Program-made: the position numbers and the translations under genes
The notes under the pieces: generated by a model
Told to the model about the DNA's origin: nothing
Databases searched by the model: none
What the model saw: the letters and a program-made list of their open reading frames with translations, nothing else
Shown: in pieces, positions 21,338 through 28,031 of the stretch
Position numbering within the stretch: the stretch's first letter is position 1
Layout: the number at the start of each line of letters is the position of its first letter
Assembly (NCBI GenBank): GCA_027314645.1
Contig: DAHVAL010000015.1
Span: 6,262 to 45,824 of the forward strand
Origin: Nitrospirota bacterium
GTDB lineage: Bacteria > Nitrospirota > Leptospirillia > Leptospirillales > Leptospirillaceae
DNA: 39,563 bases
Direction of reading: 5' to 3'

Positions 21338-23800
21338 TTATTCGGGCTTTCGAGCCAATTCCTCGAGCACGCGTTCCGTTAATGGAACGACCTCCCCCAC
21401 ATCCTTTCCATAGCCGTCTGCCTTGATTTCCTTGGCAAACTTCGGGGTGACGACGGCACCCCCCACAATCACCTTGAAGGGAAGCTTCCTCTCCTGGATC
21501 GTGTCGATGGCGATCTTCATCTGGATCATGGTGGTCGTCATCAGGGCAGAGAGGGCGACGATCTGGGCTTTTTCTTTTTCCGCCGTGTCAAGGATGACAT
21601 CAAGAGGCACATTTCTTCCGAGGTCCAGGACACGGTACCCGAAATTCCGGAGCATGAGGATGCAGATATTCTTGCCGATATCGTGGATGTCCCCTTTCAC
21701 CGTGGCAAAAACGATCGTGCCCTTCGGTTCGGTCGGCCCTTTGGCTTCAAGATGAGGTTGCAGGACTTCGACCCCTTTTTTCATGGTGTCCGCGCCGGCG
21801 ATCAGGTGGGGAATGAACTTGAGCCGTTGTCCGAACAGGTCTCCCAGCTTTCGGATGGCCGGGGTCATGATATCGACAAAGACGGAAAAGGGCGGGGTTC
21901 CCTCCGAAAGCGCCTGGTTGACCAGAGGGGTGATGGCCTCCCGCTCGCCTTCGATGATGGCGCGTTCTATTTTCTGGGCGGTTGAAAGAGGACCTTCCGG
22001 AGAGGTTCCTGCCGCCTGTTGAGATCCGGATTGAGACGCGGGGGTGTTTCCCGACGGAACCAGAGGGGTCCATCCTTCCGCTTTCTTAATAAATACCCGG
22101 CATTCCGGGTCCCGGCCGGAAAATAGGCTGGCGGCCGCAACCGTCTGGTGAAGAAGGGGGTCGTAAGGATCGCAGATGGCGCCGTCAAGCCCGGCCCCTA
22201 TCGCCATGGCCAGGAATGTATCGTGGACGGATTTTCGAACCGGAAGACCGAAGGAGACATTCGAGAGCCCAAGAACTGTTCGGGCCCCCCATTCCGATTT
22301 GAGGATCCGGATGGTTTCAAGTGTTTGTCTGGAGGCTTCCTGGACCGCGGAGACGGTCAGGGCCAAGGTATCGAATACGATATCTTCCGGGCGGAGTCCA
22401 TACTTTTCTGCCGCCCTAAGGATTTTTTCGGCATTCTTGATCCGGTCGACCGCTTTTTCCGGGATGTCCTCCCCCGAAAGCAGACCGATGACCGCAGCTC
22501 CGTACCTTCGAATCAAGGGCAAGACCTCTTCGATGCGTTCTTCCTCGGCGTTAACGGAGTTGACCAGGGCGCGCCCAGGATAAATCCTAAGCCCCGCTTC
22601 CAGGGCGGAGGCGAAAGACGAGTCGATGACAAGGGGAAGAGACACCACGTTTCCGATCGCCGTGACGGCTTTTTCCATCATTCGGGCTTCGTCCACAAGG
22701 GGGACTCCCACGTTCACGTCCAGCGCGTGGGCACCCGCGGCCGCCTCTTTCCGGGCTTCAGCGACGATCAGGTCGGTCCGTCCTTCTGCGATAGACTCTG
22801 AAAATACCTTCTTTCCGGTCGGGTTGATTTTTTCACCGATCAGGACAAAGGGAACTCCGTCCCCAAACGGAAGGACCGTATTGCGGGAGGTGATCCGGGT
22901 CAGGCTGATTCTCGAGCGATGAACCGGCGGAAGGCCTCTGACCTTTTTCGAGAGGAGGCGGATGTAGTCAGGAGTCGTGCCGCAGCACCCTCCGATGATG
23001 TTGGCTCCCGCCGCCACGAAGGCCGGAGCGTAAGAGACCATCTCCTCCGCGCCGGTCGGGTAGACTGTTCGTCCGTCACGATGAACCGGAAGCCCGGCAT
23101 TGGGTTCAATCGCCAGAAACGTATGGGTCGCCTTTCCCAATCGTTCGAGCACCGGCACCATGGCTTCCGGACCGACCGAACAATTGAGGCCCATAATTTC
23201 CACTCCGAAACCTTCGAGAACCGCCGCCACGGTTTCCGGGTCCGAGCCCGAATCCGTTATCCCGTCCGCGTTGAAGGTCATGAGGGCCATGATCGGAAGT
23301 CCCGGGGCCCCTTCCCTGACTCCGACCAGAGCGGCCCGCATTTCCTGAATGTCGAACATCGTTTCGATCGCGATGAGGTCCGCTCCTGCTTCTTTGAGAA
23401 TCGCCGCCTGTTCCCGGAAGATGCCGACGGCCTCTTCGAAGGAAAGCTCCCCGACCGGGGCGATGGTTGTTCCCGATGGACCGATATCCCCGGCGATATA
23501 CGCTTTTCCTTTAGAGGCCCGGCGGGCGAGTTCGACCCCCGCGTGATTGATTTCCCGGATGCGGGACTCTGCATTGTATTCGGCGAGTCTGAGGCGTGAG
23601 GCGCCAAAGGTATTGGTAAGAAGGATGTTCGACCCCGCATCGGCATATTCGGCATGCACGCGCGCAATTTCATCAGGCCGCTCAAGATTCCAAAGATCCG
23701 GAGCGTATCCTGGGGGCAGCCCTCTTCCTTGCAATAAGGCTCCCATGGAACCGTCCAATAAAAGAATGTCTTTTTTAAGCCGTTCAAGGATTGGAATCAC
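21338..23800 (-). CDS. metH: Cobalamin-dependent methionine synthase lacking the reactivation domain
   Basis: 820 residues against about 1,200 for E. coli MetH. Residues 1-290: homocysteine methyltransferase with zinc cysteines in G-L-N-C-S (about 207) and G-G-C-C-G (about 271-272). About 310-570: pterin-binding TIM barrel (D-V-N-V-G-V-P). A Ser/Gln/Gly-rich linker near 580-610 precedes the helical cap and the B12 domain with D-I-H-D-I-G-K-N, whose His (about 706) is the lower cobalt ligand. The protein ends there: the SAM-binding reactivation domain is absent but is encoded by the gene just upstream, whose stop overlaps this start by 4 nt. It transfers methyl groups from methyl-tetrahydrofolate to homocysteine. 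Confidence 0.96.
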   Translation of the reverse strand: MIPILERLKKDILLLDGSMGALLQGRGLPPGYAPDLWNLERPDEIARVHAEYADAGSNILLTNTFGASRLRLAEYNAESRIREINHAGVELARRASKGKAYIAGDIGPSGTTIAPVGELSFEEAVGIFREQAAILKEAGADLIAIETMFDIQEMRAALVGVREGAPGLPIMALMTFNADGITDSGSDPETVAAVLEGFGVEIMGLNCSVGPEAMVPVLERLGKATHTFLAIEPNAGLPVHRDGRTVYPTGAEEMVSYAPAFVAAGANIIGGCCGTTPDYIRLLSKKVRGLPPVHRSRISLTRITSRNTVLPFGDGVPFVLIGEKINPTGKKVFSESIAEGRTDLIVAEARKEAAAGAHALDVNVGVPLVDEARMMEKAVTAIGNVVSLPLVIDSSFASALEAGLRIYPGRALVNSVNAEEERIEEVLPLIRRYGAAVIGLLSGEDIPEKAVDRIKNAEKILRAAEKYGLRPEDIVFDTLALTVSAVQEASRQTLETIRILKSEWGARTVLGLSNVSFGLPVRKSVHDTFLAMAIGAGLDGAICDPYDPLLHQTVAAASLFSGRDPECRVFIKKAEGWTPLVPSGNTPASQSGSQQAAGTSPEGPLSTAQKIERAIIEGEREAITPLVNQALSEGTPPFSVFVDIMTPAIRKLGDLFGQRLKFIPHLIAGADTMKKGVEVLQPHLEAKGPTEPKGTIVFATVKGDIHDIGKNICILMLRNFGYRVLDLGRNVPLDVILDTAEKEKAQIVALSALMTTTMIQMKIAIDTIQERKLPFKVIVGGAVVTPKFAKEIKADGYGKDVGEVVPLTERVLEELARKPE

Positions 23801-24483
23801 GTGTCGGTCTCCGCCTCAGGATTCGATTTTTGTTCCGTTCCGGGACGCTGCCATCCGATCACTGCGGAGACGGAAAGTCGCGGAATCATGATATAGGCTT
23901 CATTGAGCGAGATCCCGATCTGATGGGCCTCGGTCAACGCCATCACCTCGGTTTGGGAGGAGAGGGGCCAATCGCCATATCCGACTCCAAACCGGTAGGT
24001 CCGCTGGTATCCGGCGCGAACGATTTCCCGTTCAAGCATGCGGTCGAGCCAAATCCCCATGTAATCCGCCATCCATGCGCCGACTCTTTCGAGGAAGTAG
24101 GCATGCGCAGGCTCGGGTCCGGTGAGTCGATCGACCTCATTTTCAATTTTCGGCCCGATGGTGGCAACGATCAGGGAGGCGTAGTCACAGTGTTTCAGGA
24201 GCTTGACCATTTTTTCGCCCTGAAAGAGCGTGGAGGTTTCTTTGGCGAGGACCTTCCTCTCTTCCATTCCGGTGATCTCAAGCGTTCGATAGACACCCTT
24301 TCCCTCGATCATCCGGTATCCTTCCTCAATCGCTGTGCTGATGGCCTTTTCCATGGCAGGTTCGCCGAGTTCGGCAAGGGAAGCCTTTTTAGGAATGCGC
24401 ATTTCTCGTAGGATCTGGCGTTCCTCGATCTGAAAGGGGATATTGTAGAAAAAAATCGGATGGCCGAGTCTGATGGCCGGCAT
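23797..24483 (-). CDS. Free-standing MetH reactivation (SAM-binding) domain protein
   Basis: 228 residues of the Met_synt_B12 activation-domain family. The SAM-binding signature R-x-x-x-G-Y-x-x-x-P is intact as R-F-G-V-G-Y-G-D-W-P (about 164-173), followed by S-L-N-E-A-Y-I-M-I-P-R-L-S-V-S-A-V-I-G, the usual end of the domain. It would reductively remethylate oxidised cobalamin on the neighbouring MetH core, using SAM and an electron donor. The frame extends to a GTG at 24522, but that lies inside a terminator stem; the ATG at 24483 with AAAGGA upstream is preferred. Its stop overlaps the metH start by 4 nt, which favours equal synthesis of the two proteins. Confidence 0.9.
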   Translation of the reverse strand: MPAIRLGHPIFFYNIPFQIEERQILREMRIPKKASLAELGEPAMEKAISTAIEEGYRMIEGKGVYRTLEITGMEERKVLAKETSTLFQGEKMVKLLKHCDYASLIVATIGPKIENEVDRLTGPEPAHAYFLERVGAWMADYMGIWLDRMLEREIVRAGYQRTYRFGVGYGDWPLSSQTEVMALTEAHQIGISLNEAYIMIPRLSVSAVIGWQRPGTEQKSNPEAETDT

Positions 24484-24507
24484 GGGGTCCTTTCCGAAGA
24501 TCTCACC

Positions 24508-24543
24508 AAAAAGGACCGGCACCCGCGACGCGGAGTCGGTCCT
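24508..24543 (-). terminator. Intrinsic terminator/attenuator between thiC and metH operon
   Basis: On the minus strand AGGACCG pairs perfectly with CGGTCCT, an inner CCGC/GCGG stem strengthens it, and five T residues follow. It lies 63 nt after the thiC stop and only 25 nt before the start of the MetH reactivation gene, so it either terminates thiC or attenuates the downstream operon. Confidence 0.8.
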
Positions 24544-24549
24544 GTTTGT

Positions 24550-24582
24550 GTATTCGAGGAGATGTTGCGACCCTCGAAATAC
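24550..24582 (-). other. Stem-loop preceding the thiC/metH terminator
   Basis: TTCGAGG (24553-24559) and CCTCGAA (24572-24578) form a perfect 7-bp stem with a 12-nt loop, extended by GTA/TAC across a one-base bulge. It sits 7 nt before the terminator on the transcribed strand, an arrangement compatible with an anti-terminator or a processing stem. Confidence 0.5.
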
Positions 24583-24605
24583 AAGGTTCTAAAGTTTTTC
24601 AATCC

Positions 24606-26868
<2,263 letters not shown>

Positions 26869-26970
26869 TTGAAAGGTTTGGAAATCATTTTCGCTTCGGC
26901 AGTCGCTCTTGTCCCGCTTGCACTTTCTTTAGCCCTTATTCTAGGGATCGTCTCTGATGGAAAGAACTGA
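26869..26970 (+). CDS. Possible small single-span membrane protein
   Basis: 33 residues from a TTG start preceded by AAAGGAAA at a suitable distance. After a short M-K-G-L-E start it is almost entirely hydrophobic (I-I-F-A-S-A-V-A-L-V-P-L-A-L-S-L-A-L-I-L) and ends in S-D-G-K-N, so it would be one membrane helix. An in-frame ATG at 26836 would give 44 residues but has a poor ribosome-binding site. The size and topology resemble small subunits of respiratory oxidases or transporters, though none is encoded nearby. It may be a chance hydrophobic frame in a gene-poor region. Confidence 0.35.
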   Translation: MKGLEIIFASAVALVPLALSLALILGIVSDGKN

Positions 26971-28031
26971 AAGGCGGAAAGGCCCTATTGTTTTAGGAAT
27001 GGGGATTCTCGGGAGACATTCATCTTTGCCAGGGCCAAAGGGTCGAAATTCTGGAGCGACCCGGGAAAGGATGTTCACACTCCCGCCCGCCCATTCTTCC
27101 CCGAACATCTCCTCGTTGCACTCGTTTTACTCCCTCAGGATCAGGGTCCGGAGACCTCCACAGGAGCCGCATCGGATCCGAATCGGCTCAAGAGATCGGG
27201 ATCGACATTCATGAATAATGGGGCGGAAGCATTTGGAGTCTATCGAAGACTTTCCGGACAGAGGTACGGGTCTTGATCACCAAGAGGGAGAAATCGGGCG
27301 AAGTCCAATGCTGCCTGGCTTAGGAGCCCCATATCGGAGAATGTGAAGGTTCTGATCCGCGTGGATCCGGCCGATTAGAGAGTGACGATTCGACTAAAAC
27401 TTCGCTGAAAACATAGGGATTTAGGGGGGGCCGATTTTCTCATCCATCATTTCGTATTTGAATCCATGCCCCAAGGAGGCTACCATTAAGAGGACCTCTC
27501 CCCAAAAATACAAAATGTAAGGGTTCAAGAATCGGCTTTGGAAGATATGGCGAAGCGGGGCGCAATGAGTCGCATCGTCGAGACGGCGTAGAGTGGGACC
27601 GTCCGAAAAATCACGAGGACTCATTCTTGGGGGGCGACGGCACCCCTTCTTTCCGAATGGGAGCCTTGGGCGCACTCCAAAACCCGATTTCAGAGCCGGC
27701 GGTCGACGAGAATGGGCGTTCGCGGGAGTGGGGACATTTATGAGAACATCGGAGAAGGACCCTTCTGGGGATCTCTTCGAATGCGTCCGAGAAGGGGAAC
27801 ACGATATTGCTCCATACCTCTCGATTACGCCGCATGCCTTCATGAGGCAATCCTTTTGGCCCTCTTCTCCCGGAGACTCGGGATCGCTCGGTCTCTGTTC
27901 GAGGGACCCCGCTTTAACTCGGAGGTGGCCGCTCCTTTCGGCTTGGGTGCCCTCTGGACAAACCGTGATCCCAAGGACCTCTCCATGGAAATAAAAGGCT
28001 TCCCCCCCTTACTCCGTCGGAGCGAAAGAGG
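26971..28031. other. Gene-poor stretch, no supported gene
   Basis: About 1.06 kb. Several overlapping frames of 80-140 codons occur on both strands, but all are rich in Arg, Pro, Ser and Gly in the way shadow frames of GC-rich DNA are, and none shows motifs or a good ribosome-binding site. It may be decayed former coding DNA. No repeats or insertion-sequence ends were recognised. Confidence 0.4.

Follow-up and report, generated by a model that had tools for sequence, protein, structure and literature searches.

A conserved terminator between thiC and the methionine synthase genes of Leptospirillaceae, and its probable partial read-through

Background

The rplL-rpoB attenuator of Escherichia coli is a partial intrinsic terminator located within an operon. 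In E. coli, over 40% of the sites of termination have been described as showing read-through, and 38% of the operons in Methanococcus contain internal terminators, which were shown there to set expression ratios (PMC10450193). Here, we analysed a stretch of 39,563 nt (called the window) from the 2.04-Mb draft genome of a Nitrospirota bacterium of the family Leptospirillaceae, in which an intrinsic terminator lies between thiC and two genes of methionine synthesis. Judged from its sequence, this element is best read as a further case of the known intra-operon partial terminators. Relatives in the same genus are catalogued as Nitrospirae MAGs and other family members as Leptospirillum sp., and our literature search for Leptospirillum termination data or a link between thiC and metH found nothing relevant.

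Results and discussion

Gene order at the thiC-metH locus

Three genes follow each other on the minus strand of the window. The first is thiC (24606-25967; phosphomethylpyrimidine synthase, 453 aa; PF01964, E 1e-190), and after a gap of 122 nt comes metHact (23797-24483; 228 aa), a stand-alone homologue of the MetH reactivation domain, whose end is overlapped by 4 nt by the start of metH (21338-23800; 820 aa; S-methyl_trans, Pterin_bind and two B12-binding domains, with no activation domain). The PF02965 score of metHact is 24.8 bits, slightly below the 25-bit cut-off, and the sole solved relative found is PDB 1J6R (E 1e-11), which was deposited as methionine synthase and which we take to be TM0269 of Thermotoga maritima. 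The ATG at 24483 is the correct metHact start, because the alignment of the proteins from the 17 genomes starts at residue 1 in every case, and a GTG at 24522 was ruled out as an alternative since every relative begins at the ATG. The Shine-Dalgarno sequence AAAGGA (24488-24493, minus strand) is invariant in the genus.

This gene order is general in the family: the locus was located in 17 genomes of Leptospirillaceae, each with thiC directly upstream of metHact, and metH adjoins metHact wherever the contig permits. A search of 21 genomes detected no MetE, while the same search was positive in 10 of 14 control genomes. The metH gene appears to be single-copy, being split over contigs in two fragmented genomes. 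With no MetE detected and metH apparently single-copy, metH must therefore be expressed despite the terminator in front of it.

A terminator hairpin close to the metHact start codon

A sequence-only reading of this DNA had placed two stem-loops between thiC and metHact, one of them a strong leftward intrinsic terminator, and both are present. The terminator stem-loop (24512-24543, minus strand; dG -18.8 kcal/mol; z -2.7, with 1 of 200 shuffles equally stable) has a GC-closed stem (24542-24513; GGACCGACTCCGCGTCGCGGGTGCCGGTCC) extended by an A24543-U24512 closing pair. The U-tract (24508-24512, minus strand) reads UUUUU, then GG, and its first U is the one able to pair with A24543. Thus a stem of -16.6 to -18.8 kcal/mol is followed immediately by U5, the anatomy of an intrinsic terminator. 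The reading had also stressed its nearness to the metHact ATG, which is right, although the gap from the end of the U-tract is 24 nt and not 25 nt.

The fold of the full 127-nt intergenic region is not better than shuffles (z -0.96), and the number of hits in a generic terminator scan over 3 kb is not above chance, so the case for a terminator depends on rarity and conservation, not on strength alone. Because the simple 3-kb scan showed no excess, a genome-specific survey was run with a home-made gene finder on same-strand gene pairs with gaps of 40-400 nt. In the window genome, 4 comparable terminators were found in sense and 0 in antisense orientation (121 pairs, 420 kb), and the numbers in a relative (G017) are 16 in sense versus 5 in antisense (390 pairs, 1.6 Mb). 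The metHact terminator is the nearest to a start codon among the surveyed terminators of both genomes, and G017 shares this arrangement, its stem lying 24 nt from the ATG. Among the 4 terminators in 420 kb of the window genome, it has the lowest U-tract score, these scores being relative values only. The pattern GGACCG...CGGTCC-T4 occurs only once in the window genome, which rules out a repeated genomic element.

Conservation and spacing in relatives

The terminator is kept in the five nearest relatives of the window, and a U-tract is retained in most of the family, with four or five U in 6 of 6 close relatives. Across six species, 95% of the stem cells are paired and seven double-sided compensatory cells are distributed over 3 pairs, a count exceeding all 500 shuffles and the slid controls, with the reservation that the shuffle control leaves relatedness in and that the sample is only six related species. 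Generally, a terminator-like hairpin follows thiC in the family (16 of 17 genomes). Loss of the terminator under the same gene order had been named as evidence against it, and this is seen weakly, in one genome of 17 (L022), whose hairpin after thiC has no U-tract.

Of the 16 genomes with a terminator, 14 have the stem 62-79 nt behind the thiC stop codon, and the other two have it 23-24 nt behind. The stem and metHact are separated by 29-30 nt in the clade of the window, by 24-26 nt in a second genus (L019-L021) and by 49-189 nt elsewhere. Spacing to thiC is thus steadier than spacing to metHact, which favours reading the element as the terminator of thiC rather than as a device in the metH leader; this argument is moderate, because both spacings are constant within each short-spacer clade. 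A tree of ThiC and MetHact requires two changes to account for the short spacing. L019-L021 have a longer U-rich tail (UUUUCAUUUUUU), which argues against obvious leakiness.

Promoters of the operon and read-through into metHact

A strong sigma70-type promoter is predicted upstream of thiC (26165-26194, minus strand), with a -35 element TTGACA (26194-26189), an 18-nt spacer and an extended -10 element TG-A-TGAAAT (26170-26165). Its matrix score is 11.5, reached at about 5e-5 per site in the genome background. All 15 relatives that were checked have an equivalent, located at -139 to -431 relative to the thiC ATG, and its form in these genomes and the window is TTGACA-17/18-TGAAAT, TTAAAT or TAAAAT (ATTGACAAGAA...TGATGAAAT in the genus). 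In all 16 genomes, this element is the top-scoring promoter upstream of thiC (at most about 5e-5 per site).

The thiC 5' leader predicted from this promoter is about 191 nt (25968-26158, minus strand) and has no TPP riboswitch. Leaders range from about 103 to 395 nt across relatives, and the promoter element was nonetheless found in 15 of 15; no convincing conserved fold was detected in the leader, the covariation term being about zero. The region of about 2 kb before thiC (25968-28031) holds no convincing protein-coding gene, and only the promoter region within it matches relatives at the DNA level. TPP control of thiC was rejected, as no TPP riboswitch was found in 21 genomes. Four loci from three other genera of the family (L037-L040) carry an intrinsic-terminator-like hairpin at a fixed 52-54 nt before the thiC ATG, in leaders of 115-162 nt and in genomes without a TPP riboswitch; as a possible new attenuator, this thiC hairpin is a stronger candidate than the hairpin before metHact.

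Between 150 nt inside thiC and metHact, the same promoter scan gave only chance-level sites in the clade of the window; the matrix covers sigma70-type promoters with hand-set weights, so weak or alternative-sigma promoters would escape it. The best score before metHact in the window is 6.2, with 0.5 such hits expected. As the earlier reading had argued, no promoter lies in the gap after the terminator: the 24 nt are too short, and they contain no candidate. The genes are co-directional, with no sigma70-type promoter detected between them, the thiC promoter serving as a positive control.

From these features, thiC, metHact and metH probably form one unit transcribed from the thiC promoter, and metH mRNA would arise by leakage through the terminator at a fixed ratio, with no metabolite sensing. 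Transcription of all three genes would start from 26165-26194, the hairpin and U5 at 24508-24543 would end thiC as an intrinsic terminator, most polymerases would halt there, and a minor share would pass the short U-tract and make metHact-metH mRNA, so that the terminator would fix the thiC:metH mRNA ratio. Read-through is the best explanation because the clear promoter of the operon sits upstream of thiC, and with this as the only such promoter detected, no MetE found and metH apparently single-copy, it is the simplest source of metH mRNA. It would supply all or most of that mRNA, and the ratio may be under selection. The earlier proposal of either attenuation or partial read-through from thiC is thus supported in its second part and not supported in its first.

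The metHact-metH pair might instead be transcribed from a separate promoter that is invisible to the scan and lies near the 3' end of the thiC gene, in the gap before the hairpin or overlapping it; the terminator would then only end thiC or would lie within the leader of that transcript. Two relatives (L015 and L016), with spacers of 176-189 nt, have a candidate extended -10 element (TGnTATGAT) downstream of the terminator, which suggests from the sequence that in these two genomes metH acquired or retained a promoter of its own. In distant Nitrospirae where metHact is away from thiC (L041-L044), an A/T-rich extended -10-like sequence was seen by eye before the gene, and a short-leader or alternative-sigma promoter is conceivable. 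For the clade of the window, however, the scores are at chance and the weak sites of L009 are not conserved in L010-L014, in contrast to a thiC promoter that stands out in every genome. Moreover, the gap of 24 nt behind the U-tract has no room for -35 and -10 elements together with a leader that includes the Shine-Dalgarno sequence. A separate promoter therefore seems unlikely here. After the thiC terminator, the L015 intergenic region also contains tandem TTCTTGTTCCCGGGC-like repeats.

The upstream hairpin and the search for a sensor

The second stem-loop, HP1 (24549-24583, minus strand; dG -11.9), has a z of -3.2 as a 42-nt piece folded alone and of -1.9 for the whole 63-nt pre-terminator stretch. 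Covariation had been proposed as a check on both stems; it is found in the terminator stem (6 species). The window HP1 is not alignable with the GC-rich HP1 of sister species.

In a regulated attenuator, upstream RNA would toggle between terminator and antiterminator depending on methionine, B12, SAM or thiamine status. Such a device would agree with the terminator staying within 24-30 nt of the metHact ATG in both short-spacer groups, the nearest such position in the two surveyed genomes, and with HP1-like hairpins preceding the terminator in several species. Moreover, in L010-L012 and L014 the CCCAUUG that follows HP1 might form a helix with CGAUGGG, which lies at the 5' foot of the terminator, and a G-U-compatible version exists in L013. 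This possible helix of 6-7 bp in five sister species is, however, absent from the window. Pairing of the leader with the terminator 5' arm exceeded shuffles (p<=0.05) in 1 of 14 species (window p 0.26), so that no conserved, mutually exclusive antiterminator emerged from these species, and the pre-terminator stretch of L019-L021 folds at chance level. The distance from terminator to thiC is steady in most relatives while that to metH varies eightfold, as expected for a thiC end.

No Rfam family was found in the window or 16 relatives at gathering or lax thresholds, the hits being at chance level, and none of the SAM, cobalamin, TPP or T-box covariance models matched, in agreement with the earlier remark that no SAM, cobalamin or T-box consensus was recognised. 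Nor did inspection by eye reveal a leader peptide, that is, an ATG-initiated reading frame with Met codons, in 24544-24605 of the window. A cobalamin riboswitch was not found in the window genome, and such riboswitches occur at L045, L046 and L047 in three genomes of the same genus (G001, G007 and G004). Regulated attenuation is accordingly quite unlikely. The particular form in which an undescribed factor or fold, such as the HP1/CCCAUUG-CGAUGGG pairing seen in sister species, switches a metH attenuator and couples thiC and metH to methyl or B12 status would be very unlikely on this sequence evidence; the new sensor suggested earlier finds no consistent antiterminator, no HP1 shared with sister species and no Rfam match.

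Within one transcription unit, intergenic hairpins often serve RNA stability or processing, and this one stands immediately upstream of the Shine-Dalgarno sequence, but a main role in protecting thiC mRNA at its 3' end or a processed metH mRNA at its 5' end, with little termination in vivo, is highly improbable, because such a role does not need the U-tract that close relatives and most of the family have kept.

Comparison with known systems

If partial read-through is correct, the sole detected methionine synthase of these iron-oxidising bacteria of bioleaching and acid-mine settings would depend for its expression entirely on transcription that leaks past the thiC terminator. The locus would then be a simple natural example of a conserved partial terminator joining two cofactor pathways, and the arrangement can be tested in cultured Leptospirillum.

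The thiC-metH site resembles the SAM, cobalamin and T-box attenuators in that a terminator precedes a methionine-synthase gene, and it differs from them in having no conserved sensor domain, no Rfam match and no antiterminator above chance. The homology of metHact to TM0269 is a likeness that concerns the downstream gene only. The closest match is with the intra-operon partial terminators (PMC10450193), in which a terminator likewise lies between genes of one unit with no detected promoter after it, and downstream expression by read-through, here inferred, sets the product ratio. Unlike the known partial terminators, the thiC-metH site joins the unrelated pathways of thiamine and methionine, and its hairpin ends just 24 nt from the downstream start codon.
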